Shown piece after piece: positions 1 to 21,856 of a stretch of 21,932 nucleotides of DNA. This DNA comes from a virus. Under the pieces are notes generated by a model, which saw only the letters and a list, made by a program, of their open reading frames with translations, made no database searches and had not been told where the DNA came from. The DNA lies in the IMG/VR virus record IMGVR_UViG_3300005613_002533, positions 1 to 21,932 of that record; one strand, 5' to 3'. Both the position numbers and the translations under genes were made by a program. Each line of letters opens with the position of its first letter. Positions within the stretch are counted from its first letter, which is position 1.

Positions 1-761
1 ACAATTGGGACTTATTCACTTTAGATTCTACTGGTAGTGGGAGTTATGACGGAACAGGCGGCAACCTTGTTATAAGGTCTACTGAAGCTGTTTGGAACGA
101 AGGTGGAGCAGACGTAGACTTCCGTATAGAGGGAGACAACGAAGCTAATCTACTTGTAGTAAACGCAGGGGATGATGATATAGTTATGACTTCTGCACAG
201 ACAGATAGTTCAGTACTTACGATAGACGCTAACGGAACTACTGGAGCTACTGGAGAAGCAGCGGTAAGGATAGATAGTGAGAATACTGATACAGCAGCTT
301 TGTATATTACTAGTGCTGTTGATGCTAGTGGTGCAACTAATGTAGATGATTATGGGTTGGCTGTACAGACTGAAGGTCTTGGTGGGTGTATGTATGAATA
401 TAGAAATACAGTAGCCGTTGTACCTATGCACTATATAATAGAAGCTAATGCTAATTCACAAGGGGCTTTGTTATCTATGACTACTGCTCAAGATGATACT
501 GTTGTAACTTCAGCATTGAACATATCTTCCTCTAACGCTGCCTACGATAGACCTCTAATAGACCTAACTCAAGCAGGTGTTACATCTACCAACTTCAAAA
601 AAATGATAGAGCTTGATGGTCTTACTATCTGGATTTCTGACGGCACAACTGCTGAAGGTAACCTAACTGGAGTAGAAGGAGACATCTGTTTAAACGGTGG
701 TACTGGAGCAGGACAGATGGCTTACTGTGACGCCTCGGGGACCAATTGGACCGACATGTAA
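1..761 (+). CDS. Tail-fibre-like structural protein, C-terminal part (5' end outside window)
   Basis: The reading frame is open from position 3, so the true start lies upstream of the window; the Met at 186 is internal. About 252 residues are visible. The protein is low in charge and rich in Gly, Thr, Ser, Asn and Asp, with the pattern VDFRIEGDNEANLLVV near the start, which is familiar from phage tail-fibre and receptor-binding proteins that carry repeated beta-structured segments. The last residues, YCDASGTNWTDM, resemble the C-termini of many phage fibre proteins (YCxGTNW). The stop TAA (759-761) is followed one base later by the stop codon of an antisense HNH gene, and a second copy of the final eight codons lies at 1285-1308. 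The fibre assignment rests on composition and style, not on a catalytic motif. Confidence 0.7.
   Translation, partial: NWDLFTLDSTGSGSYDGTGGNLVIRSTEAVWNEGGADVDFRIEGDNEANLLVVNAGDDDIVMTSAQTDSSVLTIDANGTTGATGEAAVRIDSENTDTAALYITSAVDASGATNVDDYGLAVQTEGLGGCMYEYRNTVAVVPMHYIIEANANSQGALLSMTTAQDDTVVTSALNISSSNAAYDRPLIDLTQAGVTSTNFKKMIELDGLTIWISDGTTAEGNLTGVEGDICLNGGTGAGQMAYCDASGTNWTDM
738..761 (+). repeat. Recoded 3' end of the fibre gene, upstream copy (GTNWTDM-stop)
   Basis: These eight codons encode G-T-N-W-T-D-M-stop and form the present end of the fibre gene. The downstream copy at 1285-1308 encodes the same peptide. The two differ at five of 24 positions and all five are third codon positions: GGG/GGA, ACC/ACA, AAT/AAC, ACC/ACT, GAC/GAT. 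TGG, ATG and TAA are identical. Confidence 0.85.
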
Positions 762-762
762 G

Positions 763-1248
763 TTAGATTATATTACTAATAATGAATTTAGGATTTTTAT
801 GAAAACGCATATGAGCAGATTTACTAGGAAACAGATAAAGATTTTCAGGGCGATTATCAAGTTTGTCTCCGTTAATATGGTGGATTACTTCCGCCTTAAG
901 GAGATAGCGTCCAAGAGATTTCTCTGCTACAAGAATTTGCTCAGGCACATAACCATTCTTCATAGCTCTATGATGGTGAGGTTGAAAGATGTGTTTATAA
1001 CCAGTTGTTGTAATGGTGTATCCTTTTGGTATAGGTCTATTAAGTTTCTTACCCTTACACCAAGGAATATGTCCTTTTTTAAACGAACCAGAGTTGTTTT
1101 TCATAATACCCTTAGTTCCAGTATTCCAAGTGGGTTTACCTTTCTTGGAAATACCATAACAGGTATGAGAACAATATTTATGAACTCTATTACCTTTAGA
1201 CCTACGAGAAAATTCTTTACCACATTGTTTGCAAGTGTATGTTTTCAT
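763..1248 (-). CDS. HNH homing endonuclease (free-standing, antisense)
   Basis: This 161-residue protein begins MKTYTCKQCGKEF. An N-terminal zinc finger is formed by C6, C9, C26 and C30. Next come short Gly/Lys/Trp-rich DNA-binding segments of NUMOD3-like style (GKPTWNTG near 37-44, GSFKKGH at 54-60). The catalytic HNH region is VIHHINGDKLDNRPENL (about 121-137) with H123-H124, N132 and N136, followed by H146 and H150. The enzyme should make a site-specific break that drives its own copying into phages lacking it. The frame continues upstream to 1344, but MKTYTC is the better start because the extra 32 residues read through the fibre gene remnant. There is no Shine-Dalgarno sequence before the ATG; a consensus promoter directly upstream suggests leaderless translation. 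It is the only convincing gene on the - strand here. Confidence 0.9.
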   Translation of the reverse strand: MKTYTCKQCGKEFSRRSKGNRVHKYCSHTCYGISKKGKPTWNTGTKGIMKNNSGSFKKGHIPWCKGKKLNRPIPKGYTITTTGYKHIFQPHHHRAMKNGYVPEQILVAEKSLGRYLLKAEVIHHINGDKLDNRPENLYLFPSKSAHMRFHKNPKFIISNII

Positions 1249-1254
1249 AGGTCT

Positions 1255-1284
1255 ATTATAACAGGAGGAAGTCCTATTTGTCAA
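1255..1284 (-). promoter_or_regulatory. Consensus sigma-70 promoter for the antisense HNH gene
   Basis: On the - strand, TTGACA (+ coordinates 1279-1284) is followed by an 18-bp spacer and TATAAT (1255-1260). Both hexamers match the bacterial housekeeping consensus exactly. Only six bases separate TATAAT from the HNH ATG (1246-1248), so the expected transcription start falls at or next to the start codon. The -35 box lies within the remnant fibre gene end, on the opposite strand. Confidence 0.7.
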
Positions 1285-1308
1285 GGAACAAACTGGACTG
1301 ATATGTAA
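1261..1308 (+). pseudogene. Remnant of the original fibre gene 3' end (downstream copy)
   Basis: In the + frame this piece reads TGGSPICQGTNWTDM-stop. Its last eight codons (1285-1308) match the end of the fibre gene at amino-acid level with only third-position changes. The preceding part aligns loosely with TGAGQMAYCDAS of the upstream copy, including the shared Gly and Cys. It has no start of its own and is cut off from its gene by the HNH element. Its TAA overlaps the ATG of the next gene (TAATG), which probably keeps the pre-insertion junction between the fibre gene and its neighbour. Confidence 0.75.
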
Positions 1309-3439: not shown

Positions 3440-5567
3440 AAAAACTAAGAAAGTACCATACTTCCCAAAGAAAGACGAACTTTGTGATCATTGGGTAAAT
3501 GAAGTTGACCACGCTGACACAGCGAGAGATACTTGGAAAAGTAACCGTGAGAAATGGTGGAAGATGCGTATGCGTATCAGAAAGGTTAAAACCTTTCCTT
3601 TTGCGGGTTGTGCAAATGTAAAGATGCCTACGGTAGAGAGTATCCTACGAAAACTTAAAGCACAGAAAGTAAACACAATTTTTGGTGTTAGACCAGTTGT
3701 ACAGGCTATAACACCACCTTCAGTTGATCCGCAGATAGGGGTAAGAGCAGAGAAGTTTATAGATCACCTTATCATGGATGTAGATAGGGCTAAACTCAGA
3801 GCAGTCAGAGCTATAGACCAAGAACTAGAACAGGGTTTTGTAGTGATGAAACCTTACTGGGCGTATGAGGAGACTAACAGGATAGAGACTATAAAAATAG
3901 ATGAACTACCAGAAGATTTCATAAACCTTCTATTTTCCACAGAAGTTTCTGATGACATCGTTCTACAGTTAGCAGTTCAGCATTTAGAAGTTGATATGTC
4001 TGATGATGTCATGGACGACAACATTCAAGCAATACAACAGGCTATACAGACGCTACGCACAGGAGCGGATGAAGTTAATATCGTTCTTAAAGATGTATTA
4101 AAGAACCATCCTTCCTTTGATGTATATGACGCTGATAAGGTATATGTTCCTTCAGACAGTAAAGCCGATCCTCAGAACGCAAGATGGATAGCATTTGAAA
4201 TGTATATGCCTTATGAGGAAATGTTACGAAATGTAGAGGTCAAGGAATGGGATAAGAACGCAGTCCTTGACATAGACTGGCTACGCACTGCTGATAAAGA
4301 CCAGATAAAAGAGTATGTAGCAAGTGAAGTCCAGAAAGTTAAAGACATTGATTATAAGGACTTGGGAGAGGGTATCAATAGGATTAACAACCCCTCACAC
4401 CTAGTAAAGATATATGAGATATACGGATGGCATGATGTTAATGGTGACGGGGTAGAAGAAAAAGCTATCATCACTGTAGCACCAGACTTCAAGAAAGTTC
4501 TCCGAAAGACCACACTTCCTTTCGATAGTGGCAGGTATCCTGCAATAAAACTTGCATACGAACAGAGGGAAGACCGATGGTATGCACATAGAGGTCTATC
4601 AGAGATTATGGAAGACATCGTGAAAGAGATTGATACAGTTCACAACATGAAACTGGATTCTCTTACTATCCGTAATGCTCCGATGTTCACATTTAAGGCA
4701 GGTGCGGTAAACCCACGAATGATCAAGTTCATACCCGCACAGGCTATTCCGAGACAGGATAAAGATGATATAACACCGCTTAATAACTCAAACCCACAAG
4801 CAGATTTCTCATGGGATAGGGAACAGCAGATACTTGAAAGTAAACTCTCAGAGCTTACAGGACAGATCGATTATACCCTACAGTCTCAGATGAACAGGAG
4901 ACAACCGAGAACTGCACAGGAAGTTCAGGCACAACAATCAGCTTCACAGATGGTATTCAACCTAGATGCTGAACTTACTACAGAAGCTTTCAGCGAGTTG
5001 TTTCAGTGGTATGCTGATCTATACTCCCAGTATGGCGACCAGAAAGCCGAAATAGCTTACTTTGGTCAGGACGGTCAGGAATCTATCAAGATGACTAGAG
5101 AAGAACTACAGGGTCTTCGTCTGATAGTCAGAGGTAACGATAGAAACACCAATCCACAGGTCAAAATGCAGACAGCCCAGATGATACTTCAGGATGTTTA
5201 CCAAGCATTACAGACTGGGACTGCTACACCTATGAATATATTTAACGCTCGTAAGAGATTCTATCAAGCTCTTGGTGAGACTAATCCAGAACAGTTCGTT
5301 CAGCAACCACAACCACAACAGCCTAAACCAGACACGGAAGTTCTCAAGACTATCTATGATAACTTGTCAGTAATGGAACAGGCACAGGTTAAGCAGATGA
5401 TGGGGATACAACCTGATATGCAAGGTAGTATGGCTGAGAAGAAACTGGAAGTCGCTGAGAGAGATTCTGAAATCAAAAAAAGGGAAAGCGATGCTCAGGG
5501 CGACATGATGAATACCCTAATAAAAGGTGAGGGTGAAATACAGAAAGCGTTTGGAAACAAAGAATAA
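3429..5567 (+). CDS. Portal protein
   Basis: The gene encodes 712 residues directly after terminase, the usual place for the dodecameric portal that forms the DNA channel at the capsid vertex. The N-terminal region has a Trp/Arg-rich segment followed by KTFPFAGCANVKMPTVES (about 54-71), a pattern seen in large podovirus-type portals. The middle contains RYPAIKLAYEQREDRWY and GLSEIMEDIVKEIDTVHNMK, typical of the stem and clip region in this family. The C-terminal third is helical and Gln-rich, with a QQPQPQQPKP stretch near residues 623-632 and a coiled-coil-like tail. The ATG follows a weak GAGG site and overlaps the end of terL. Confidence 0.9.
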   Translation: MTAKKTKKVPYFPKKDELCDHWVNEVDHADTARDTWKSNREKWWKMRMRIRKVKTFPFAGCANVKMPTVESILRKLKAQKVNTIFGVRPVVQAITPPSVDPQIGVRAEKFIDHLIMDVDRAKLRAVRAIDQELEQGFVVMKPYWAYEETNRIETIKIDELPEDFINLLFSTEVSDDIVLQLAVQHLEVDMSDDVMDDNIQAIQQAIQTLRTGADEVNIVLKDVLKNHPSFDVYDADKVYVPSDSKADPQNARWIAFEMYMPYEEMLRNVEVKEWDKNAVLDIDWLRTADKDQIKEYVASEVQKVKDIDYKDLGEGINRINNPSHLVKIYEIYGWHDVNGDGVEEKAIITVAPDFKKVLRKTTLPFDSGRYPAIKLAYEQREDRWYAHRGLSEIMEDIVKEIDTVHNMKLDSLTIRNAPMFTFKAGAVNPRMIKFIPAQAIPRQDKDDITPLNNSNPQADFSWDREQQILESKLSELTGQIDYTLQSQMNRRQPRTAQEVQAQQSASQMVFNLDAELTTEAFSELFQWYADLYSQYGDQKAEIAYFGQDGQESIKMTREELQGLRLIVRGNDRNTNPQVKMQTAQMILQDVYQALQTGTATPMNIFNARKRFYQALGETNPEQFVQQPQPQQPKPDTEVLKTIYDNLSVMEQAQVKQMMGIQPDMQGSMAEKKLEVAERDSEIKKRESDAQGDMMNTLIKGEGEIQKAFGNKE

Positions 5568-6493: not shown

Positions 6494-7432
6494 ATGGTTA
6501 AGAACCAAGACGATGTAATTCTGGACTCATCACCAGAGGACGAGGATGTAAATGGTGGAACACTCACCGATGTTGAATACTCATCCGATTCAGCAGAAGA
6601 TCAAGCTCAGGAAGACTCATCCGCATCGGAGGATGTAAAAGAAACCGTAAGTGGGGATGAAGTTGAGATACCTACCGACAGACCACCAAAGAATGTCATA
6701 GCAGAGCTTCAGCGTAAGAACGAGAAGCTTGAGAACGAAATGCAAATGATGAACTTTAGGTCTCAGGAGAAGGAAGATCAATTTCTGAACAAAATGAATG
6801 AGCTTGTGAACACGATGCAGACTTCGAAGCAAAGTGCGTCAAACGAGCTAACCAGAGATCAGTTAGTTACGCTCATGCAACAGAATCCCGAACACGCTCC
6901 GTTATATCAGGCTGAGTTAAATAAGCTTGATTTAAAGGATCAGATGGATTCTTTCAAGCAGGAGTTATTCTCCAAACAGAAAGAATCAGAGACTCTGGCA
7001 CAGCATGAAAACATCAGAAAACAAGCCTACGGTTATGTTACTGGTTCTTATAAGAACGCTCTCGTTGACGGGCAGTGGAATTATACCGATCCAGTAATAA
7101 AACGAATGACCCAAATACTCTACATGGAGAAAGACCCCATGAGCGGTAAAGTTCTAAAGGATCATCCGTTAGGACTACAGGTGGCTTTCGATAGGGCGTT
7201 TACTGAAGTGACTCTGAGTAAGCAACCGAAACAAACTGAGCAGATGAAGAAACTGCAACGGAAAACAAAGAAGTTACAAAAAGGACAACTGACTGAAGGG
7301 GGATCGAGTGCATCACCCAAGTCGGAAGTCAAACTGAAGCAACTCCAACAACTGAAGGAAAAGTCTATGCGTTCGGGGAACTTTACAGACTACCTGAAGG
7401 CTTCAGGCATGATACCAAAGTTTGAGGAGTAG
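6494..7432 (+). CDS. Scaffold-like protein
   Basis: This 312-residue protein is translated from a strong site (CAGGAGGAAAC). The first 60 residues are very acidic and Ser/Asp/Glu-rich, residues about 66-110 form a likely coiled coil (VIAELQRKNEKLENEMQMMN onward), the middle is helical and Gln-rich, and residues about 243-260 are strongly basic (MKKLQRKTKKLQKG). An acidic N-terminus, a central coiled coil and a basic capsid-binding C-terminal region directly before the major capsid gene are typical of head scaffolding proteins. No protease motif is seen. The call rests on composition and position. Confidence 0.75.
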   Translation: MVKNQDDVILDSSPEDEDVNGGTLTDVEYSSDSAEDQAQEDSSASEDVKETVSGDEVEIPTDRPPKNVIAELQRKNEKLENEMQMMNFRSQEKEDQFLNKMNELVNTMQTSKQSASNELTRDQLVTLMQQNPEHAPLYQAELNKLDLKDQMDSFKQELFSKQKESETLAQHENIRKQAYGYVTGSYKNALVDGQWNYTDPVIKRMTQILYMEKDPMSGKVLKDHPLGLQVAFDRAFTEVTLSKQPKQTEQMKKLQRKTKKLQKGQLTEGGSSASPKSEVKLKQLQQLKEKSMRSGNFTDYLKASGMIPKFEE

Positions 7433-8733: not shown

Positions 8734-11013
8734 ATGAAGAAGACGACAGTAGGGTTAGGTATTATTTGCAAGGATGAAGTTGAAGATGTTTACAGGATAC
8801 TAAAGAATTACGGTAAATACTTTGACAAGATATGCGTTACCGTAACGAACAAGAAAGAATGGGAAGCCATTAAGAAGTTTGACAAGCTGAAGGATAAAGT
8901 CTATGTCAATTACTTCGAATGGTGTAACGATTTCTCTAAGGCAAGGAACTTTAACTACAGCCACTTAGGGACTGACTGGATTTTCTACATGGACTGCGAT
9001 GATGATATAGATCATCCAGAGAAGATCAGGGAGATAGCAGAGAAAGCTAACTTAGGTAATATCGACTTGGTTTGGATGTATTACTACTACGACCTTAAAG
9101 AAGGTGTGGAGCATTGGAAAGAAAGACTAATGCGTAACGATGGCACTTTTGAATGGAAAGGTGTAGTCCATGAAAACCTGATAGCAAAAGAGAATAGGAA
9201 GTTTGAGATAAGCTCCACAGATGAAGTTGCGTTGATCCATAGACCTACAGAAGAAAGGCAAGACGAGTCAGCGAGTCGCAACCTTCAGCTACTACTACAA
9301 GAATATAAGAAAGACGGGGATAAGACAGACCCTAGAATACTCTCTTATATAGCTATGACACTATATGGTATGGGTGGATACAAAGACTGTATCCCATTCT
9401 TTAATAAGCACATAGAGAAAAGTGGTTGGAAGGAGGATGTTTATAATTCATGGGTAGTTATGGCAAGGGCTTATCAGCATTTAGAGGATTACAAGAGTGC
9501 CATAGGCTGTCTATACGAAGCTATGGATATAAGGTCGGACTTCCCAGACGCATACCTCGCCTTAGCGGAAGTCAAGTTCTACGAGAAGGACTGGAAGGGA
9601 GTCGAGCAGTGGACACTGGTAGGATTACAGAAAAAGAAGCCTAAGTTTGGCATACCTTCTGTAAGAACCAGTAACTATACTTTCAGACCGCTTGTATTTC
9701 TATCACACGCTTATCTTAATGACGGTGAGATAGACAAAGCGTTTAACACCATAACATCAGCAAAGACTATTGCACCTAAGAACGAGTCGGTGCTTAAACA
9801 ATACGATTTCATCGAGAAGGTTTACACAGAGAAGAAGTATCTGCAAAACATGGTCTGGATGAAGACTTACTTAGAGGAGAATGATAAGGAGACAGCGTTT
9901 AACCTCCCGTCAATAATACCTGCTAACTTAGCAAGTGACGATAGGTTTATCAAGTTGAGGAACGCCTTATCGAAACCGCATAAATGGAACGAAAAAAGCA
10001 TCGTTATATATTGTGGGGAAGCATGGGAAGACTGGGCAGACCCATCAGTAATAACAGGAATAGGTGGATCGGAAGAAGCAGTAGTGTATGCGAGTCGGGA
10101 GTTAGTGAAGCAAGGTTACGAAGTAACCGTCTTCAACTCTTGTGGAAATTTAGAAGGGGAGTATAACGGAGTAGTTTACAAAAACTGGTATAACTTTAAT
10201 CCAGTAGATGTATTCAACACCCTTATATGTTGGAGAGGATCACTATTCAGACACTACAACCTCAAAGCTAAAAAGAAGATTGTATGGCTACATGATGTTC
10301 CCGCACAGAACGAGTTTAACGAAAAAGAGTTAAAAGAAATAGATCACATCATTGTTCTTTCTCAATATCACAAATCATTACTACCAACAGTACCAGAGGA
10401 CAAGCTATATGTCTCTACTAACGGTATAGTTCCTGAACAGTTTAAGCCAGATGCTCTAAAGCAAGACTTCAGGATGTGCTATACCTCAAGCCCTGACAGG
10501 GGTTTAGAACATCTACTTGATAGATGGGAAGACATAAAAGAAGGCTGTCCTGAAGCCGAACTTCATATCTACTACGGATGGGGGACATTTGATAAGAGGT
10601 TCAAAGAGAATAAAGAAATGCAGGCTTGGAAAGCTGAAATGGTAGAGAAGATGAAACAGCATGGTATCAAATGGTATGGAAGAATCGGGCATAAGAAGCT
10701 TGCAAAAGAAATGGCTCGATGTCGTATATTTGCTTACCCATGTAACTTTGAAGAAATCAACTGCATCAGTGTATTAAAAGCACAGGCAAGTAACTGTTTA
10801 GCTCTTACTACTAACTACGGTGCATTGAACGAAACGAATGAGTATGGCATCAAGATCAAGGGTAACACGAATGATAAGAAAGTAATGGATAAGTGGGTAG
10901 AGAACATCATCTACGAACTTAATCATCCTACGGATCAGAAGTGTGCAGATAAGATTCTAAAGAAATACTCATGGGAGAATGTAACCCAGAATTGGAGTAA
11001 GGATATTCTATGA
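8734..11013 (+). CDS. Bifunctional glycosyltransferase: GT2 domain, TPR region, GT4-like domain
   Basis: This 759-residue protein has two glycosyltransferase modules. Residues 1-180 are GT-A/GT2-like: VGLGIICKDEVEDV at the start, WCNDFSKARNFN, the metal-binding acidic cluster DCDDDI (87-92) and FEWKGVVHENL (139-149), as in TPR-linked GT2 proteins of Gram-positive phages and bacteria. Residues about 195-365 are helical repeats of TPR type. Residues about 420-759 are GT-B/GT4-like: GGSEEAVVYASREL (444-457), IVWLHDVP, VLSQYHKSLL, STNGI, SPDRGLEHLL, and a C-terminal Glu-containing donor-site motif near EEINCISVLKAQA (673-685). It may add two sugars in succession. It opens the cassette and overlaps the radical SAM gene by 4 nt. 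Acceptor and donor cannot be told from sequence. Confidence 0.85.
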   Translation: MKKTTVGLGIICKDEVEDVYRILKNYGKYFDKICVTVTNKKEWEAIKKFDKLKDKVYVNYFEWCNDFSKARNFNYSHLGTDWIFYMDCDDDIDHPEKIREIAEKANLGNIDLVWMYYYYDLKEGVEHWKERLMRNDGTFEWKGVVHENLIAKENRKFEISSTDEVALIHRPTEERQDESASRNLQLLLQEYKKDGDKTDPRILSYIAMTLYGMGGYKDCIPFFNKHIEKSGWKEDVYNSWVVMARAYQHLEDYKSAIGCLYEAMDIRSDFPDAYLALAEVKFYEKDWKGVEQWTLVGLQKKKPKFGIPSVRTSNYTFRPLVFLSHAYLNDGEIDKAFNTITSAKTIAPKNESVLKQYDFIEKVYTEKKYLQNMVWMKTYLEENDKETAFNLPSIIPANLASDDRFIKLRNALSKPHKWNEKSIVIYCGEAWEDWADPSVITGIGGSEEAVVYASRELVKQGYEVTVFNSCGNLEGEYNGVVYKNWYNFNPVDVFNTLICWRGSLFRHYNLKAKKKIVWLHDVPAQNEFNEKELKEIDHIIVLSQYHKSLLPTVPEDKLYVSTNGIVPEQFKPDALKQDFRMCYTSSPDRGLEHLLDRWEDIKEGCPEAELHIYYGWGTFDKRFKENKEMQAWKAEMVEKMKQHGIKWYGRIGHKKLAKEMARCRIFAYPCNFEEINCISVLKAQASNCLALTTNYGALNETNEYGIKIKGNTNDKKVMDKWVENIIYELNHPTDQKCADKILKKYSWENVTQNWSKDIL

Positions 11014-11894
11014 AGAATCTATACTTGAAACTGGCATACAGATACGAAGATGTTAAGAAGTGCCTGAAGGGGAAAACACCAATTCCTCTCTCAGCGACAA
11101 TATTCCCCAGTGAGAGGTGTAATCTTCACTGCGTTTATTGCCACTCCGAGAGCATACATGATGGAGGGCAGATGTCATGGGATACTTACAAATCTGTTAT
11201 AGACGACTTAAAGCTCTTTGGCGTAGAGTCCGTAGCTTTCGAGGGGGGAGGAGAACCTCTCTTAAACCCTTTGATGGGGAAATTTATAACATACGCAAAA
11301 GGGAAAGGGCTAGGCGTTGGCATACTCACAAACGGGACGATCTACATAGATGAACTTCTACTGGCTGACTGGATAAGGATAAGTCTGGATGTTCCGAACA
11401 AAGAGATATTCAACGAGATCAAAGTTCCTTCTGATCCAGAATGTTTCGATAAGATACTAGGAAACATAGCTACACTGGTTCAGAACAAGAGTAAGACCAC
11501 CATAGGGATAAAGTTCATGTTATCTAAATGGTGGACGGATAGGGAAGCTTGTAAGAAGCTTTGCAGAGACTTAGGGGTGGATTACTGCCAAGTCAAATAT
11601 GTAAGGCATCACAAGCTTTCACTAATGGACGACAGGGCAAGGGCAGGAGAAGCGTGTAAGTTGACACCCTTAAAAGTAGTAATCAACTATGACGGGTCTT
11701 TGCACCTTTGCCCCTTCTTCCATCATCAACCTCAGATGAAGATAGGAGACGGTCTGTTAAGCGAACTCTGGGGGAGCGAACAGCACAAGAAAGCCATAAG
11801 CTGTATAGACCCTAAGAAGTGTGCTTACTATGACTGTCCTATGAGAAACATAGACTTTCAAAGACTAGAGGATGCACATTTATCATGGGTATAA
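11010..11894 (+). CDS. Radical SAM protein with SPASM-like C-terminus
   Basis: The gene encodes 294 residues. The CxxxCxxC iron-sulfur motif is C37-NLH-C41-VY-C44, and the SAM-binding GGEP motif appears as EGGGEP (78-83). The C-terminal region has further cysteines, C216, C234, C265, C271 and C276, in the NYDGSLHLCPFF...CIDPKKCAYYDC pattern of SPASM or twitch auxiliary cluster domains. Relatives modify peptides or carry out radical steps in sugar and cofactor pathways, so the substrate is open; the surrounding glycan genes suggest a sugar or a glycan-linked group. The start ATG overlaps the preceding stop (ATGA), and no precursor-peptide gene is obvious nearby. Confidence 0.85.
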   Translation: MKNLYLKLAYRYEDVKKCLKGKTPIPLSATIFPSERCNLHCVYCHSESIHDGGQMSWDTYKSVIDDLKLFGVESVAFEGGGEPLLNPLMGKFITYAKGKGLGVGILTNGTIYIDELLLADWIRISLDVPNKEIFNEIKVPSDPECFDKILGNIATLVQNKSKTTIGIKFMLSKWWTDREACKKLCRDLGVDYCQVKYVRHHKLSLMDDRARAGEACKLTPLKVVINYDGSLHLCPFFHHQPQMKIGDGLLSELWGSEQHKKAISCIDPKKCAYYDCPMRNIDFQRLEDAHLSWV

Positions 11895-11914
11895 AGAGTA
11901 GAGGTAATTATAGC

Positions 11915-12064
11915 ATGGGGTTTTGCATGAAGTTTGACTGTAGAAACAGAGGAGAGAAATGTGACAAATGCTATGGACACACAGAGTATATTTCTGGCAA
12001 TAGGGGGAGACATCGGAGAGCGGTGTCTGAACTACTTAGCAAAGACGGGCGTAGAGATAACTGA
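11915..12064 (+). CDS. Possible small Cys-rich ORF overlapping the formyltransferase start
   Basis: A 49-codon frame starts MGFCMKFDCRNRGEKCDKCYGH and carries C4, C9, C16 and C19, a spacing that could bind a metal. The second half overlaps the formyltransferase in another frame, and the ribosome site is weak (AGAGG about 12 bases upstream). The stretch from 11895 to 11960 is otherwise the longest gap in the cassette, which is the main reason to list it. It may be a chance frame. Confidence 0.25.
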   Translation: MGFCMKFDCRNRGEKCDKCYGHTEYISGNRGRHRRAVSELLSKDGRRDN

Positions 12065-12578
12065 TGTATTACGGAGGGGAGAGAAGTTTAGAACAACCCC
12101 TGCTGATTTTCTGATCTCTATACAATACGATAAGTTGTTTAGCGAACAGGACTTATCGCAATACAAGAAAGCCTATAACTTTCATTTTAGTATGTTACCC
12201 CTTAACCGTGGATGTTTACCTATCAACTGGGCTATATGGAATGGTGATCCGATAGGTGTAACCTTACACGAAATGACAGACGGAATAGATGATGGTTGCA
12301 TCATCGATAAGATACAGGTTCAAGATGAAGTAGAGGAGACAGCATACACAGCATATAAGAAGTGTTGCAAAGCCTGTTACGAGTTACTAACAAGAAATAT
12401 TGGAAGGCTGTTGAGGGATGATTACACAGCTACCCCTCAAGATCACAGCAAGGCTACCTACCACAAGAAGGGAGAGTTCCCGTGCGACAAGTATTTGGAC
12501 GGGTTAAACAAGTGGGATAAGGAGCGGTTACAAAGGGCTTTATGGTTTCCAGAGAAGGAAGGAGCAAGATATAGATGA
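11961..12578 (+). CDS. Formyltransferase-family protein (sugar N-formyltransferase-like)
   Basis: The protein (205 residues) has the formyl-THF-dependent formyltransferase core: NFHFSMLPLNRG (N73 and H75 as the catalytic Asn and His), PINWAIWNGDPIGVTLHEMTDGID with D110 at the position of the catalytic Asp, then DGCIIDKIQV. It is shorter than methionyl-tRNA formyltransferase (about 310 residues) and lacks that enzyme's C-terminal tRNA-binding domain, so N-formylation of an amino sugar nucleotide is more likely. The start chosen is GTG 11961, because AGGAG lies six bases upstream; the ATG at 11973 has no such site, and the in-frame ATG at 11934 lies before it. It overlaps the next gene by 4 nt. 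Confidence 0.8.
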   Translation: MTNAMDTQSIFLAIGGDIGERCLNYLAKTGVEITDVLRRGEKFRTTPADFLISIQYDKLFSEQDLSQYKKAYNFHFSMLPLNRGCLPINWAIWNGDPIGVTLHEMTDGIDDGCIIDKIQVQDEVEETAYTAYKKCCKACYELLTRNIGRLLRDDYTATPQDHSKATYHKKGEFPCDKYLDGLNKWDKERLQRALWFPEKEGARYR

Positions 12579-13282
12579 ACTGGGCTACGATAACCATTTG
12601 TTATAACGAAGAAAAACGCATCAGACAAGCGTTGCAGAACAGAAAGGATGGTGGTTATGAAACAAACCTCGTCATGTTGTCAGAGAAACCGTTTTATGGG
12701 AAAGAGTATCCGAAGGATAGAACGGAAGAAATCGCAGAGGAAATGGGTGCTGAAGTTATTAAAGGTGTATGGTCACAAGATGATCCTATGCTTAATGTCG
12801 GTCTTAATGTGCTTAAAGGCTTTGATTATGTCTTATTTCTTGCACCAGACGAGTTCCTTACCAGAGAAGACCACATCGCACTTAGACGATTTGTGGAAGG
12901 ACAAGGGGACTACCCTGCCTTCGCAGTATCTAAAATGAACACCTACTTTAAGAGTTCTGAATGGAGGGTTGAACCCCGTGAAGACTACAAACCGATCATT
13001 GTTGTCGATCCTAAAAAAACGCAGTTCAGAGATATTCGTTCAGTTACAAGTAACTTCGGGTATCTTCCTGCTGATATTACTTTGTATCATTACAGTTGGG
13101 TACGAGGTGATGAAGAAGTTAGGCGAAAGCTTGACAACTTCTCTCACGCACCGCAAATAACACCTAATTGGTATGAAGAAGTCTGGGAGAAATGGACACC
13201 AGACACTAAAGACTTTCATCCAATGAACCCACCGCAGTATCATTCCGTAGTAAAAGACCCACCACCAGAGGAGTTTTTATGA
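12575..13282 (+). CDS. Glycosyltransferase family 2-like protein
   Basis: This 235-residue protein begins MNWATITICYNEEKRI, the usual first strand and NEE loop of GT-A glycosyltransferases. FDYVLFLAPDEFLTREDH (83-100) takes the place of the DxD segment, with D92 as likely metal ligand. The C-terminal half has LYHYSWVRGDEEVRRKLDNFSH and a Trp-rich end that recall the acceptor side of phage and bacterial GT2-like proteins. The canonical DxD is imperfect, so activity needs testing. It shares ATGA overlaps with both neighbours and probably acts in the same pathway. Confidence 0.7.
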   Translation: MNWATITICYNEEKRIRQALQNRKDGGYETNLVMLSEKPFYGKEYPKDRTEEIAEEMGAEVIKGVWSQDDPMLNVGLNVLKGFDYVLFLAPDEFLTREDHIALRRFVEGQGDYPAFAVSKMNTYFKSSEWRVEPREDYKPIIVVDPKKTQFRDIRSVTSNFGYLPADITLYHYSWVRGDEEVRRKLDNFSHAPQITPNWYEEVWEKWTPDTKDFHPMNPPQYHSVVKDPPPEEFL

Positions 13283-13677
13283 AGATAGTATTTACTTATG
13301 GTGTATTTGATCTCTTTCATGCAGGTCATGTGAAACTCTTAGAGAAGTGTAAGAGTTATGGTGACAGGCTGATAGTTGGTTTATACACAGACAAAGTAGC
13401 AGAAGATTTTAAGAGACCGCCAGTAATGGATTATGCAGATCGCAGGGATGTATTACAGGCTTGTGCGTTTGTAGATAATGTATGGATGTTAGACGACAAA
13501 GACCCTACAGATGCTCTTAGATATTTAGAACCAGATGTCTTAGCAAGAGGAGACGACTGGGATGTAATACTAGGCGAAGAATATATGAAGTTTCACGACA
13601 AACCTACCATCGCTATACCTTATCACGAAGGTATAAGCACATCGGAGATTATCAAGAAGATAAAAGATGAATATTGA
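13279..13677 (+). CDS. Cytidylyltransferase, TagD / glycerol-3-phosphate type
   Basis: This 132-residue protein is a compact nucleotidyltransferase. The HxGH active-site motif is HAGH (14-17) after TYGVFDLF, and the second nucleotide-binding motif is GISTSEII (118-125). The segment ARGDDWD (89-95) matches the KGDDW block of TagD-type enzymes, which make CDP-glycerol from glycerol-3-phosphate and CTP for teichoic acids. Length and layout fit that family. Closely related enzymes activate other phosphorylated alcohols or heptoses, so the substrate is a prediction. In this cassette it would supply an activated donor to the glycosyltransferases or to a phospho-transfer step. Confidence 0.8.
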   Translation: MKIVFTYGVFDLFHAGHVKLLEKCKSYGDRLIVGLYTDKVAEDFKRPPVMDYADRRDVLQACAFVDNVWMLDDKDPTDALRYLEPDVLARGDDWDVILGEEYMKFHDKPTIAIPYHEGISTSEIIKKIKDEY

Positions 13678-13948
13678 TTTATTCCTGAAGTTAATGACTT
13701 CATACCACATAACGGATTTCTTTCAACCGTCATGGCTGAAGACTGAGAAGAAAAGCAATATGTTATATCTCGTTCAACACGCCCTTATAGACGGAGGTTT
13801 GATATACCTTATAACGCAGGATATAGCGTTGTTTATGATGGTATCGCTTAGTCATTTTATTATAGATAAGTGGCAGTTACATAATGAAAACCGATTAGCA
13901 GACAGGGCAGGACATTTAGCAATATGGATACTATTAAGTTGCATTTGA
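13667..13948 (+). CDS. DUF3307-like small membrane protein
   Basis: The gene encodes 93 residues in two or three hydrophobic segments (about 40-64 and 84-93). It has the conserved polar pattern of DUF3307 proteins: H14-xx-D17-F-x-Q20 with W23 and K25, H38, S62-H63-F-xx-D67-K68 and D79-xxx-H83. Function of the family is unknown; the His/Asp arrangement inside the membrane suggests metal or proton chemistry. It overlaps the cytidylyltransferase by 11 nt, so it may be part of the glycan operon. The LAGLIDADG gene starts inside its last 25 nt. The protein ends soon after the last conserved His, so slight shortening by the insertion cannot be excluded. Confidence 0.7.
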   Translation: MNIDLFLKLMTSYHITDFFQPSWLKTEKKSNMLYLVQHALIDGGLIYLITQDIALFMMVSLSHFIIDKWQLHNENRLADRAGHLAIWILLSCI

Positions 13949-14373
13949 AAGACGATAATCTTTTATCTTGGATGGGTGGATTCTTTGATGGAGAAGGGTG
14001 TGTCAATCTGAACAAGAGTGGACTCAGAGTTGTTGTAACGAACACCAGATTAGATGCTTTGGAGATATTCCAGAACTATTTTACTGGTCTAGGTGCAAAA
14101 AGCAAGAAGTATAGGAGGAAAAACACAACAGCTAAGAAGGTTTGTTGGCAGTTGGTATATTGGAGTAATCACGCAGAGCTTGTTTTGAAAACTTTATTAC
14201 CTTATATGGTTCTCAAGAAAGAAGAAGCTGAAACTGCCTTAATGTATAGGTCACTTCAAATATATCACGGAAGGAAGTTACCGTGGTATAACGCAGTGGC
14301 AAGGAGAATGTTGGAGGATAAATGCAAAGCACAGAAAAGAAACGAGACGGAACTATTGTCCGTCTCCATTTAG
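13924..14373 (+). CDS. LAGLIDADG homing endonuclease (single motif)
   Basis: This 149-residue protein has one LAGLIDADG motif, LSWMGGFFDGEGC (about 14-26), with D22 and E24 near the catalytic position. It is followed by the usual alpha-beta pattern: LRVVVTNTRLDALEIFQNYF, a basic segment KKYRRKNTTAKKVCWQLVY, then LPYMVLKKEEAETAL. One motif per chain implies a homodimer acting on a roughly palindromic site. It overlaps the DUF3307-like gene by 25 nt and the methyltransferase gene by 52 nt, so it lies in an operon junction rather than in an intron. Unlike the two HNH genes, no duplicated neighbouring gene end is visible around it. Confidence 0.9.
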   Translation: MDTIKLHLKDDNLLSWMGGFFDGEGCVNLNKSGLRVVVTNTRLDALEIFQNYFTGLGAKSKKYRRKNTTAKKVCWQLVYWSNHAELVLKTLLPYMVLKKEEAETALMYRSLQIYHGRKLPWYNAVARRMLEDKCKAQKRNETELLSVSI

Positions 14374-14873
14374 GATGCGGACAGGATGTAAGGAAAGGGT
14401 ATATCAACATAGATAAGTTTGACACCCGTTGTAGTGGAGTTATACAGGGAGATATGCTTGATCTGGCAGAGTTCGATGATGAATCAGTAGATGAGATTCT
14501 AATGATAGAGGTTATCGAACACTTAGACTTTAAGGAGTTGGAGATAGGTTTAAGAGAGTGGCAGAGAGTATTGAAGCCTGAAGGTTTCTTACATACCGAA
14601 TGTCCAGACATCTTAGAAATAGCCAAGAAGATCGTAGAAGAAGACCTTACAGACCCTCTAATGTATGACATCTGGGGACAGTATTACAGACCGTGGGATG
14701 AAGAACATTACGGGGCTGACATATTACAGGGGATGTTTCATAAGCAAGGTTTCACTAAGAAGCGTATTGAGTGGTTAGCGAAAGAGCATGGTTTCTCAAG
14801 AATAGAAGACATACCTTTCAAGGATAAGCAATATCCTACACCATTATCTCTTGCTGTAAGGTGGTATAAATGA
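14322..14873 (+). CDS. SAM-dependent methyltransferase of glycan-cluster type
   Basis: This 183-residue protein is a class I methyltransferase. Motif I is LHLGCG (15-20), D31 in YINIDK ends strand 2, and EVIEHLD (63-69) and RVLKPEG (82-88) are the usual following motifs. The LGCGxxxxxGYINID style is common in lipopolysaccharide and capsule gene clusters, often beside glycosyltransferases. GGAGG lies a few bases before ATG 14322, inside the C-terminal part of the LAGLIDADG gene, and supports this start. It overlaps the next gene by 4 nt. The methyl acceptor is probably a sugar, but this is inferred from context. Confidence 0.85.
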   Translation: MQSTEKKRDGTIVRLHLGCGQDVRKGYINIDKFDTRCSGVIQGDMLDLAEFDDESVDEILMIEVIEHLDFKELEIGLREWQRVLKPEGFLHTECPDILEIAKKIVEEDLTDPLMYDIWGQYYRPWDEEHYGADILQGMFHKQGFTKKRIEWLAKEHGFSRIEDIPFKDKQYPTPLSLAVRWYK

Positions 14874-15616
14874 AGAACTTAATACTATGTTGGGATGCAG
14901 TAGCTCCTGACATACAACTAAGAAAAGAGTTTAATTTCCCATATCACGGGAAACTGCGTTGTCCCGCTACTTGTGGACAGAACTGGTCTTGCACCCTTAC
15001 CAGTATGATAAGTCTCTACATAGGGCGAATATGGGACGAATATTGTTACTGGGAGACAGCAGACCCACTACTTAATGGATTTGAAAAGACGCTCTTTAAC
15101 AAAGGCACATGGGGACTGTTAGGATTACCGTGGTTATATCCACTACCAGACGATCTAAAAGGGTGGGGGATAGTAGGGTTTCCTAACCCAGATATGCCAA
15201 AGTGCAGTCCGCACTATGAGAAACATGGCAGGATGTTCACTGAAGGTTTAGAAGAAGACTTCAAGATACTAAACGATTCATGGAACAAAGGGATATATGA
15301 TCCTGCTGTAGAGTATAAAATCAAGACAGACATACTCAAAAAGACACCTGAAGTAGATACAGTCTTCATGGAGTATGATTCAGTTAACAGGGGCTACCAT
15401 AAACTCGGTAATGCTGATGATGGAGTGATGTGGGAACAGTGTCTATGGTTTACCAACAAGCTATTAGATGAGTTCAAACCAGATAACTATATCATCTTCT
15501 CAGATCACGGTAAGCCTAAGAAACCAAAAGCCTACGACCATGATGGGGTCTGGGCTTCGAATCAAGATTTGAAGTTAGAAACATTTGAAGACTTAATAGG
15601 AGTATTACACAAATGA
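14870..15616 (+). CDS. Alkaline-phosphatase-superfamily-like enzyme
   Basis: The gene encodes 248 residues with the landmarks of the alkaline phosphatase/sulfatase/phosphodiesterase superfamily in order: D9 in LCWDAVAPD (metal ligand), NWSCTLTSMISLYIGR (38-53) with C41 or T42 as nucleophile, D170-xxN-xx-H177 in EYDSVNRGYHKLG, IIFSDHG (208-214) with D212-H213, and YDHDGVW (222-228). It is about half the usual size and seems to keep only the catalytic core. There is no signal peptide, so it acts in the cytoplasm. It may hydrolyse or transfer a phosphate or phospho-alcohol, perhaps on the same substrate as the TagD-like enzyme. Confidence 0.7.
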   Translation: MKNLILCWDAVAPDIQLRKEFNFPYHGKLRCPATCGQNWSCTLTSMISLYIGRIWDEYCYWETADPLLNGFEKTLFNKGTWGLLGLPWLYPLPDDLKGWGIVGFPNPDMPKCSPHYEKHGRMFTEGLEEDFKILNDSWNKGIYDPAVEYKIKTDILKKTPEVDTVFMEYDSVNRGYHKLGNADDGVMWEQCLWFTNKLLDEFKPDNYIIFSDHGKPKKPKAYDHDGVWASNQDLKLETFEDLIGVLHK

Positions 15617-16272
15617 AGTGGTCAATAATAATACCGTCATACCTGATTAATGCACGACTGGTAGCACTAGCTAACAAGTGTATAGCGTCTATACATAAGA
15701 CTACCAAACAAGAATATGAGATCATCATGGTTGAAAGTGGGGAGTATGAAGTTGAAGGTGCAGATATACTCATACGCCTACAAGACCAGACACCTTTCGC
15801 AAGGGCTGTAAATCTTGGAACGAGAGTAGCGAGTGGTGAATATCTGGTTATATGTAACAACGACTTAGAGTTACCTGAAGGATGGGAAGAAGCCATAGAA
15901 GAAACCTTCGAGTCGGATGATAATTGTGCAATAGCTACGCTACAGTCCAGTGAGGAAAACAAACCAGAGTTTGATGAGATCAGAGAAGACTTCTTCGGGG
16001 GGTTCTGGGTTATACATGAGGAGTCATTCTTTGACATAGGTGATCTGGACGAACAGTTTGTAAATTCATTTGAGGATGCCGATTACTGGCTAAGAACAAG
16101 AGCAGACGGAGCAAAGATACTAAAGAACTGTAAGCTTAATGTTCTTCATCATGCCAGACAGACAGTAGATATAGACCTACTGAACCATTCCCAAAATTAC
16201 ATAAAGAATAGAGAATTATTTAACCAGAAGCATGAGGGAAGCCAAGACTCATGGTTCGCGCACTTGAGGTGA
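15613..16272 (+). CDS. Glycosyltransferase family 2
   Basis: This 219-residue protein is a GT-A fold transferase: MKWSIIIPSYLINAR at the start, FARAVNLGTRVASGEYLVICNNDLELPEGW (62-91) with the acidic NND at 82-84 in place of DxD, GGFWVIHEESFFDIGDLDEQF, and the catalytic-type EDADYWLR (154-161). A His-containing strand (LNVLHHARQT) follows, as in rhamnosyl- and related transferases. It closes the glycan cassette, with an ATGA overlap to the preceding gene, and lies four bases before the virion genes resume. Donor and acceptor are unknown. Confidence 0.85.
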   Translation: MKWSIIIPSYLINARLVALANKCIASIHKTTKQEYEIIMVESGEYEVEGADILIRLQDQTPFARAVNLGTRVASGEYLVICNNDLELPEGWEEAIEETFESDDNCAIATLQSSEENKPEFDEIREDFFGGFWVIHEESFFDIGDLDEQFVNSFEDADYWLRTRADGAKILKNCKLNVLHHARQTVDIDLLNHSQNYIKNRELFNQKHEGSQDSWFAHLR

Positions 16273-20494: not shown

Positions 20495-20920
20495 ATGAAC
20501 TTAGGCGAATGGAACTATATTATATTACTTCCTATATCCAGTCTGCTCTTTATGATCGGTGGGACTGGGTTTAAGTGGGCTAGAAGGTTTGTCCTTCCTG
20601 CTGTCATAGCAGGTATGGCTATCCTGAATGGTTCTAATATATGGCTGTCACTTGGGGCAGGAGGGCTTCTGGTAGGAGCTTTCTGTATGCCTTATGGTGA
20701 CGGTAAGGACTGGTGGTTTAGGTTTATGATAGGGTGTTTATACGCTCTTGCCTTGCTACCACTAGGCTTTACAACCTTTCAAGCGATCTATCCTTTTATA
20801 TTTCTACTAACATTTTATATCAGCAACCAGAAATGGGGAGAGAAATGGCTACCGTGGAAGGCTTGGGAAGCTCTTAATGGTCTCTTGATAGGTTGGATGG
20901 CATCACTTCTAATAACATGA
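20495..20920 (+). CDS. Multi-pass membrane protein; target gene of HNH element 2
   Basis: The gene encodes 141 residues with about five hydrophobic segments (roughly 8-24, 32-46, 49-65, 76-108 and 127-141), and AGGA upstream of the ATG. No family is recognised; holin or superinfection-related roles are possible for a small phage membrane protein in this region. The final segment, GLLIGWMASLLIT (129-141), is encoded again after the HNH gene, at 21480-21521. The stop TGA overlaps the HNH start (ATGA), so the two are translationally coupled. Confidence 0.75.
   Translation: MNLGEWNYIILLPISSLLFMIGGTGFKWARRFVLPAVIAGMAILNGSNIWLSLGAGGLLVGAFCMPYGDGKDWWFRFMIGCLYALALLPLGFTTFQAIYPFIFLLTFYISNQKWGEKWLPWKAWEALNGLLIGWMASLLIT
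20879..20920 (+). repeat. Recoded 3' end of the membrane-protein gene, upstream copy
   Basis: The 14 codons encode GLLIGWMASLLIT-stop. Against the downstream copy, the first six codons differ strongly (GGT/GGG, CTC/CTA, TTG/CTT, ATA/ATT, GGT/GGA, TGG/AGC) yet only one residue changes (W to S). The next 20 bases (20897-20916 against 21498-21517) are identical, then ACA/ACC and TGA/TAA differ. Confidence 0.88.
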
Positions 20921-21480
20921 ATAGAATCAAACGAGATAAAAGTGGTCGTTTTGTGAGTGGAAGTTTTATCCCCACACCTGCAAATAAGGGGAAGCCTGAA
21001 CACTATAAAACCATTACTAAATATTGCGAGTGCGGTTGTGGTAAGATTGTAACCTTTAAACCTATAGAAAAAAGCAGAAGGAATCAGAGGTTTATCAAGG
21101 GTCACAATGCACGAATTTATAGCAAGGAGCATCGCCAGAAGTGTTCGGAAAAGGCTTCGAAGACTCGCAGGAATAACGGACAACCTCGCCTAACTCCGAT
21201 TTATAAGCGGATAAAAGTTAGTAAGAAATATAAAGAGTGGCGTATTCAAATATTCTCAAGAGATGGTTATAGGTGTCAGGAATGTGGAGGGCGTGGAGGA
21301 GAGCTAAATGCTCACCACATAAAACCCTTTTCGCATATCTACAGAGAAGCTATAGACATATATGATGATGGTAATGTTATAGAGTCTATCCTTGAATACG
21401 AACCCCTCTTTGAACTTGGCAACGGTATTACTCTATGCCGAGAGTGTCACATAAAGGTTCACAATGAGAAATACGCATAG
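20917..21480 (+). CDS. HNH homing endonuclease (free-standing, sense)
   Basis: This 187-residue protein begins MNRIKRDKSGRFVSG. It has a basic N-terminal region with a Cys cluster (C37, C39, C41 in CECGCGK) and a short GHNARIYSKEHRQKCSEKAS segment like those of phage HNH proteins. The catalytic C-terminal part is classic: WRIQIFSRDGYRCQECG with C120 and C123, AHHI (132-135), then N169 and LCRECHIKVH with C174, C177, H178 and H182. An earlier TTG in frame is possible, but ATG 20917 overlapping the TGA of the membrane-protein gene is the natural start. It should cut the unmodified target in related phages. It lacks the N-terminal zinc finger and NUMOD3-like parts of the other HNH protein here. 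Confidence 0.9.
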   Translation: MNRIKRDKSGRFVSGSFIPTPANKGKPEHYKTITKYCECGCGKIVTFKPIEKSRRNQRFIKGHNARIYSKEHRQKCSEKASKTRRNNGQPRLTPIYKRIKVSKKYKEWRIQIFSRDGYRCQECGGRGGELNAHHIKPFSHIYREAIDIYDDGNVIESILEYEPLFELGNGITLCRECHIKVHNEKYA

Positions 21481-21856
21481 GGCTACTTATTGGAAGCATG
21501 GCATCACTTCTAATAACCTAATAGCTAAAATATACAATTACTTCAAGTCCGATTATGGAACTGAGCAGAGCGAAGTGGATAAGATGCTCTCAACTCATAA
21601 GATATATAGGACTTTAATAATAAGTGACAAGGCTATGGCTAGATTTAATGTATCAGAAGATGGACTAAGAGCCGATGTCTTAGATGCGGTAGTGGTTGAA
21701 GGTGGACTCAAGACCTTACGGGAAATGATGAGGATAGGCAAAAAGAGATTCCCGACACTCACAACAATAACATGGGGGAGATCACATTCTCATCCGAATC
21801 CTAATAAACCCCATGAGGTAAAGACAAGAGATTTTAATAAACTTACAAAGGAGTAA
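21464..21856 (+). CDS. Hypothetical phage protein with a start possibly supplied by HNH element 2
   Basis: The frame encodes 130 residues from ATG 21464, which has AAAGG six bases upstream and overlaps the last 17 nt of the HNH gene. Residues about 1-18 come from the HNH 3' end and the gene-end remnant, so they cannot be original. The likely native part begins around LIAKIYNYFKSDYGTEQSEVDK (19 onward) and continues with YRTLIISDKAMARFNVSEDGLRADVLDAVVVEGG, a compact alpha/beta-looking segment. Other starts are GTG 21575 and ATG 21584, both without good ribosome sites. No family is recognised with confidence. Confidence 0.65.
   Translation: MRNTHRATYWKHGITSNNLIAKIYNYFKSDYGTEQSEVDKMLSTHKIYRTLIISDKAMARFNVSEDGLRADVLDAVVVEGGLKTLREMMRIGKKRFPTLTTITWGRSHSHPNPNKPHEVKTRDFNKLTKE
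21480..21521 (+). pseudogene. Remnant of the original membrane-protein gene 3' end
   Basis: In frame this reads GLLIGSMASLLIT-stop, which is the last part of the membrane protein with one change (S for W). It has no start and is detached from the gene by the HNH element. Its first base is the last base of the HNH stop codon. The same bases are read in another frame as part of the next gene if that gene starts at 21464. Confidence 0.8.

Follow-up and report, generated by a model that had tools for sequence, protein, structure and literature searches.

Two phage HNH genes lying between diverged copies of a host gene end: candidate end-replacing homing endonuclease cassettes

The stretch of DNA analysed here, referred to as the window, is a complete IMG/VR virus record of 21,932 bases. 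It is part of a tailed phage and contains genes for an SU10-like portal and a major capsid protein (Pfam). Within 22 kb the contig carries two free-standing HNH genes, HNH-A and HNH-B, plus a third homing-type gene of the LAGLIDADG family. HNH-B (20917..21480, plus strand) encodes a free-standing HNH endonuclease of 187 aa with an intact HNH motif (PF01844, E=2.6e-6; PF13391, E=3.2e-5; phrog_119, E=4.7e-13). Its host gene is a complete plus-strand ORF of 141 aa (20495..20920), which probably encodes a hydrophobic, multi-pass membrane protein. The protein has no match in Pfam and a weak match to phrog_16151 (E=0.002).

The host gene ends in an inner, gene-fused tail (20879..20920, plus strand; DNA GGTCTCTTGATAGGTTGGATGGCATCACTTCTAATAACATGA) encoding GLLIGWMASLLIT-stop. 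An outer tail copy beyond the nuclease gene (21480..21521, plus strand; DNA GGGCTACTTATTGGAAGCATGGCATCACTTCTAATAACCTAA) encodes GLLIGSMASLLIT-stop. An earlier, sequence-only reading had found the host gene's last 14 codons on either side of HNH-B, and this is borne out to the base. Its coordinates and counts hold as well: the first six codons all differ, with 8 of 18 bases but one residue (W/S) changed; 20 identical bases follow (20897..20916 and 21498-21517, plus strand, by sequence comparison), and then ACA/ACC and TGA/TAA changes. Equally, the ATG of HNH-B (20917) overlaps the host stop codon (ATGA) and its TAG (21478-21480) ends on base 1 of the outer copy, as had been described. The inner copy is in frame with the membrane protein gene; an in-frame start at the outer copy could yield no more than 7 residues, MASLLIT. 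The tail pair reaches an alignment score of 54, and scores of at least 50 occur in 0.04% of pairings when the far sides of 168 phage HNH loci are swapped. The predicted junction of the empty site is 20878|21480.

The next ORF downstream (21464..21856, plus strand) has no family match among the Pfam and PHROG profiles. In its longest reading it begins within HNH-B and runs through the outer copy in a frame different from that of the tail; GTG 21575 and ATG 21584 are alternative in-frame starts. The best-looking start is ATG 21464, inside HNH-B and with AAGG upstream, although this, like the other start sites given here, is a predicted one. The HNH-B cassette may thus have given the downstream gene a new start.

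A tail-repeat search around the other homing-type genes of the contig showed that HNH-A repeats the layout of HNH-B, the nuclease lying between two copies of GTNWTDM-stop. The host gene, a probable structural gene represented by its 3' part (3..761, plus-strand ORF, open at the contig start), ends GTNWTDM-stop in the inner tail copy (738..761, plus strand; DNA GGGACCAATTGGACCGACATGTAA). The outer copy lies at 1285..1308 (plus strand; DNA GGAACAAACTGGACTGATATGTAA). Between them and antisense to the host gene lies HNH-A (763..1248, minus strand; ORF open to 1344), a free-standing HNH_3 endonuclease (PF13392, E=1.2e-10; phrog_20891, E=1.7e-18). All five synonymously changeable codons differ between the two copies and no residue does. 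The outer copy overlaps the ATG (1308) of the next gene in TAATG (1306-1310). Such an overlap is a normal operon junction, which points to the outer copy as the original end. The empty-site junction is predicted at 737|1285.

Both nucleases have HNH domains exceeding the Pfam cut-offs (PF13392; PF01844 and PF13391), and at both loci the endonuclease gene has a complete host gene on one side and a repeat of that gene's end on the other. Each host gene is closed by a stop codon of its own, before or at the HNH gene start, which fits neither an intron nor an intein. Location of the HNH genes in an intron was rejected, since a search of the window with Rfam gave no match.

How the two copies of each tail diverged can be judged from the substitutions. 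When 10 random substitutions were placed in the 42 bases of the HNH-B tail, at most one residue change resulted in 0 of 20,000 simulations; 5 random changes in the 24 bases at HNH-A gave the observed protein conservation in 0 of 20,000. As simulated random changes were never this silent, both copies diverged under coding constraint, and as the outer copies are now untranslated in that frame, the divergence predates the side-by-side arrangement. Under the codon usage of this phage, the probability that all codons differ between unrelated synonymous spellings is 0.07 for the five codons at HNH-A and 0.18 for the left half of HNH-B. The codon differences are thus no greater than unrelated spellings give, and import of a diverged allele is enough to explain them, with no need of selection for recoding; recoding in excess of saturation is unsupported. 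We read the differences as ordinary synonymous saturation, as expected of an imported allele. In the right half of the HNH-B tails five codons are identical (p=0.0012 by chance). The 20-base block may mark a recombination junction or shared short homology. The sequence-only reading had offered it as a possible junction; the block has no counterpart at HNH-A.

Which copy is native was sought in uninserted relatives. None of the window phage was present in the collections searched: the HNH-B membrane protein had no relatives in viral_contigs or phages even at E=10, the host gene of HNH-A none in phages or genome_contigs and the portal none in genome_contigs, and relatives of the tail gene and capsid were absent or only distant. 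A related case is more informative. In the isolate Vibrio phage 1.030.O (locus L019), an HNH_3 gene lies within the 5' end of an M15 peptidase gene, and relatives show presence/absence polymorphism at the insertion site. Of 36 bases, four uninserted relatives (1.086.O, 1.124.O, 1.174.O and PS15B.2) share 29-31 with the outer head and 18-22 with the inner; a fifth uninserted relative, H188, shares 26 with each. Against the uninserted relatives, the M15 gene shows identities of 0.56-0.80 over its first 50 columns, rising to 0.8-1.0 in most later bins; for 1.086.O, identity in the first 50 columns is 0.81-1.00 to the other relatives and 0.64-0.88 to H188. The closest relative of the inner head is H188 (85% over 75 nt), so that this head resembles another natural allele. 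Since the relatives match the outer head, the nuclease arrived bringing a foreign head to the gene, and it is the native one that now lies outside. Taken by itself the repeat at L019 carries little weight (p=0.03 when far sides are swapped); it is established through the relatives. By analogy, the inner tail at HNH-B would be imported and the outer tail the native left-over end.

The frequency of the arrangement was surveyed at 160 HNH loci from two alignment-based scans of viral_contigs, to which public phages added more; a single-protein scan with HNH-A gave no match. At each locus the comparison set the tail or head of the neighbouring gene, in that gene's reading frame, against the DNA across the HNH gene from it. 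Scores of at least 45 were found at 7 of 156 phage HNH loci versus 1 of 1036 control genes of the same loci (Fisher p=4e-6), and without the window contig at 5 of 154 versus 1 of 1012 (p=2e-4). Swapping the far sides among loci, which draws on the same loci as the control-gene counts and is not independent of them, gave such scores in 0.07% of pairings, with 0.12 expected versus 9 seen at 168 loci. These nine include the doubtful L140 and L141, rejected as examples because their matches look compositional. A repeat is thus detectable at only about 4-7% of the surveyed loci, a rough lower bound since the survey covers HNH genes and sees only repeats still recognisable as protein.

The clear examples comprise both gene ends. 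At L087 the head of an endolysin gene is repeated (18 codons, 78% of residues and 61% of bases identical), at L178 the tail of a phosphatase-like gene (62% residue identity) and at L145 the tail of QueC (50%). The HNH stop codon of L145 lies inside the outer copy, much as that of HNH-B ends on the first base of its outer copy. Further clear examples with unnamed host genes are L103 (head), L134 and L070 (tails). A DNA-level search of phages for uninserted relatives of L145, L178 and L087 found none, and the QueC relatives of L145 in viral_contigs, L145 itself aside, have at most 56% protein identity. The control loci L162, L175 and L005 carry other end repeats, which do not surround HNH genes; the signature is thus enriched at HNH genes, not exclusive to them.

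Taken together, we consider it quite probable that both HNH genes of the window belong to end-replacing cassettes, each built around a free-standing homing endonuclease. Counting against this are the small share of surveyed loci with a repeat, the LAGLIDADG gene of the contig, which has none, and the 20-base block at HNH-B, for which the reading gives no account. The sequence-only reading had tied the HNH gene to a diverged replacement of the host gene end and a left-over second copy, and this link gains support from its recurrence at HNH-A and other phage HNH loci and from the relatives of Vibrio phage 1.030.O. In the proposed mechanism, the HNH protein would cut an uninserted homologue in the coding sequence close to the end of the gene. 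Repair templated by the carrier would copy the nuclease gene together with the carrier's diverged gene end, which becomes fused to the gene body of the recipient. The host gene is then complete, as is seen, and what is probably the recipient's original end lies beyond the nuclease, untranslated in its frame. The old target would thereby be split, with body and diverged end on one side and the orphaned native end on the other. Following the model for yeast WHO elements discussed below, the orphaned end could act as a second homology arm in the next round of homing.

The diverged end most likely comes from another natural allele rather than from recoding in place. That selection for immunity to the HNH protein instead recoded the inner tail where it lies seems unlikely to us. 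All five changeable codons differ at HNH-A and all six codons in the left half of HNH-B, while every residue bar one is kept, as recoding would have it, but differences of this extent fall within those of random synonymous spellings (p=0.07 and 0.18). The claim that the recoded side is a selected protection is therefore unsupported in the form first given. Amino-acid divergence at other loci (L145, L178) and the likeness of the inner head of Vibrio phage 1.030.O to the natural allele of H188 both point to import. Insertion with target-site duplication, by a staggered cut or by transposition, followed by drift of both copies, would account for direct repeats around both HNH genes and for the 20-base identical block at HNH-B. 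We regard it as very improbable: a copy drifting untranslated would not be confined to synonymous changes, HNH-A is without a long identical block, and the four uninserted relatives of the Vibrio phage clearly match one copy only.

Two further explanations concern the data rather than the biology. As the contig is an IMG/VR virus record, metagenome assembly might have merged two strains, with and without the HNH gene. Two independent junctions in one contig, the base-exact abutment at HNH-B and the same layout in an isolate genome and other contigs make such a chimaera scarcely credible. A peptide as short as GTNWTDM might turn up repeatedly in tail proteins, so that a chance match or a recurrent C-terminal motif has to be weighed too. 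This we hold to be the least probable explanation of all, as scores of at least 45 are so rare in swapped pairings and yet occur twice in the window contig, and as control genes are without the signature at the rate for which the HNH loci are enriched.

Returning to the end-replacing cassette, the survival of a full outer copy in the carrier bears on the target. The cleavage site had been proposed to lie wholly in GGG-CTA-CTT-ATT-GGA-AGC; this is unsupported as it stands, since the same site would persist in the carrier at 21480-21497. The target should therefore straddle the lost junction and extend to the left of the outer copy. The exception would be an HNH nickase tolerating cuts in its own allele. 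Some phage intron HNH enzymes are nickases that tolerate action on their own allele.

A sigma-70-type promoter-like site on the minus strand (1255..1284) abuts the outer copy at HNH-A. It matches the consensus at 12 of 12 positions (TTGACA-N18-TATAAT, with TG before the second hexamer), and the second hexamer ends 6 nt before the ATG of HNH-A (1248), so that it would yield a leaderless mRNA. In the survey, with start codons assigned mechanically, promoter-like sites of at least 11/12 were commoner at HNH genes (13 of 156) than at other genes (6 of 1036), and the commonest promoter-to-start distance was 6 nt (7 of the 29 HNH genes scoring at least 10). These sites suggest cassettes with their own expression, self-promoted and leaderless.

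Arrangements of this logic are known outside phages. In the sections of PMC3630166 drawn on here, fungal mitochondrial mORFs (Allomyces atp6; Glomus atp6, atp9, cox2 and nad3) are described with an expressed foreign C-terminus and the native C-terminus left downstream. They share with the window an endonuclease gene beside a C-terminus, foreign in the mORFs and probably so in the window, that is fused to the host gene; for Glomus atp6, only synonymous changes separate the native end from its relative. The mORFs described there are mitochondrial and encode LAGLIDADG or GIY-YIG enzymes, in contrast to the HNH enzymes of a phage; their duplicated ends measure roughly 50-280 bp, versus 24-42 bp in the window; and those sections report gene ends, not heads, whereas the phage HNH loci include heads. 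In WHO elements at yeast FBA1, homing replaces the 3' end of the gene, giving a resistant allele and a duplicated 3' fragment. Experiments demonstrated allele-specific cleavage, and the authors' model uses the duplicated fragment as second homology arm (PMC7282813). The duplicated 3' fragment and, probably, the replaced 3' end are shared features; the WHO enzymes differ as intein-derived zinc-finger endonucleases, the elements are nuclear and the fragments measure about 400 bp (PMC7282813). Membership of HNH-A and HNH-B in the WHO family proper was rejected, both proteins being HNH and not intein-like endonucleases with a zinc finger; they would work like WHO without belonging to it.

Among phages, the free-standing homing endonucleases of T4-like phages (Seg/Mob) perform intronless homing with co-conversion of flanking sequence (PMC2988022). 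They resemble the window in their free-standing HNH genes, some of which, mobE for example, begin on the upstream gene's stop codon, but have separate cleavage and insertion sites (PMC2988022). The main text of that review makes no mention of duplication, synonymous changes or C-terminus. In lactococcal Skunavirus and ICP1-like phages, HNH homing genes often lie near or inside essential genes (PMC12724721, PMC10448857); a term search of the main texts found no duplication or recoding of a host gene end. No description of the end-replacing arrangement in phages was found in the literature on phages and fungi, a search from which subscription journals fell largely outside, leaving priority unproven. 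The novelty would thus lie in a known homing logic now met in phages, apparently with HNH enzymes, in either orientation and at the heads as well as the tails of genes. Whether end-replacing HNH cassettes form an unrecognised, recurrent class of phage mobile element, aimed at the coding sequence close to either end of important genes, with a cleavage-proof replacement end and in part with their own promoter and leaderless start, we judge to be evenly balanced. Such a class would be a natural counterpart of synthetic home-and-rescue gene drives.

For free-standing homing genes entering coding sequence without an intron or intein, the usual answer has been insertion between genes. Bringing the lost gene end along, as already shown in yeast, would be another route for phages, by which a selfish gene can spread without breaking its host gene. 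The arrangement leaves a scannable sequence signature, predicts the target of each nuclease as the gene body joined to the outer copy, would account for short foreign patches at the ends of genes, and provides a bacterial setting in which a natural equivalent of a rescue drive could be put to a direct test.

Several minor observations were made at other surveyed loci. At L162 (3598-4041) and L175 (1449-1895), non-HNH genes of similar size are flanked by gene ends ...KWNC-stop whose spelling has diverged; they may be a further kind of mobile gene that behaves alike. At L011 the end of a 418-aa gene, DKPINIKTNWIV-stop, has a diverged counterpart, DQPLNIGVGWIK-stop, immediately upstream of that gene (repeats at 5393-5431 and 6637-6675); no HNH gene was detected between the copies. 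In Alteromonas phage AD45-P4 (L016, 1368-3633), an HNH-family gene and an annotated homing endonuclease gene separate two annotated thymidylate synthase pieces.

In the window itself, the LAGLIDADG gene (13924-14373; profile match to PF14528) starts within the 3' end of a DUF3307 gene (region 13667-14373). The search that was applied to HNH-A and HNH-B found no tail repeat around it, and its insertion style is different from theirs. The region between the capsid and tail genes (8734-16272) holds genes for glycosyltransferases, radical SAM, formyltransferase, cytidylyltransferase-like and methyltransferase proteins, perhaps a block for sugar modification of the virion or cell surface.
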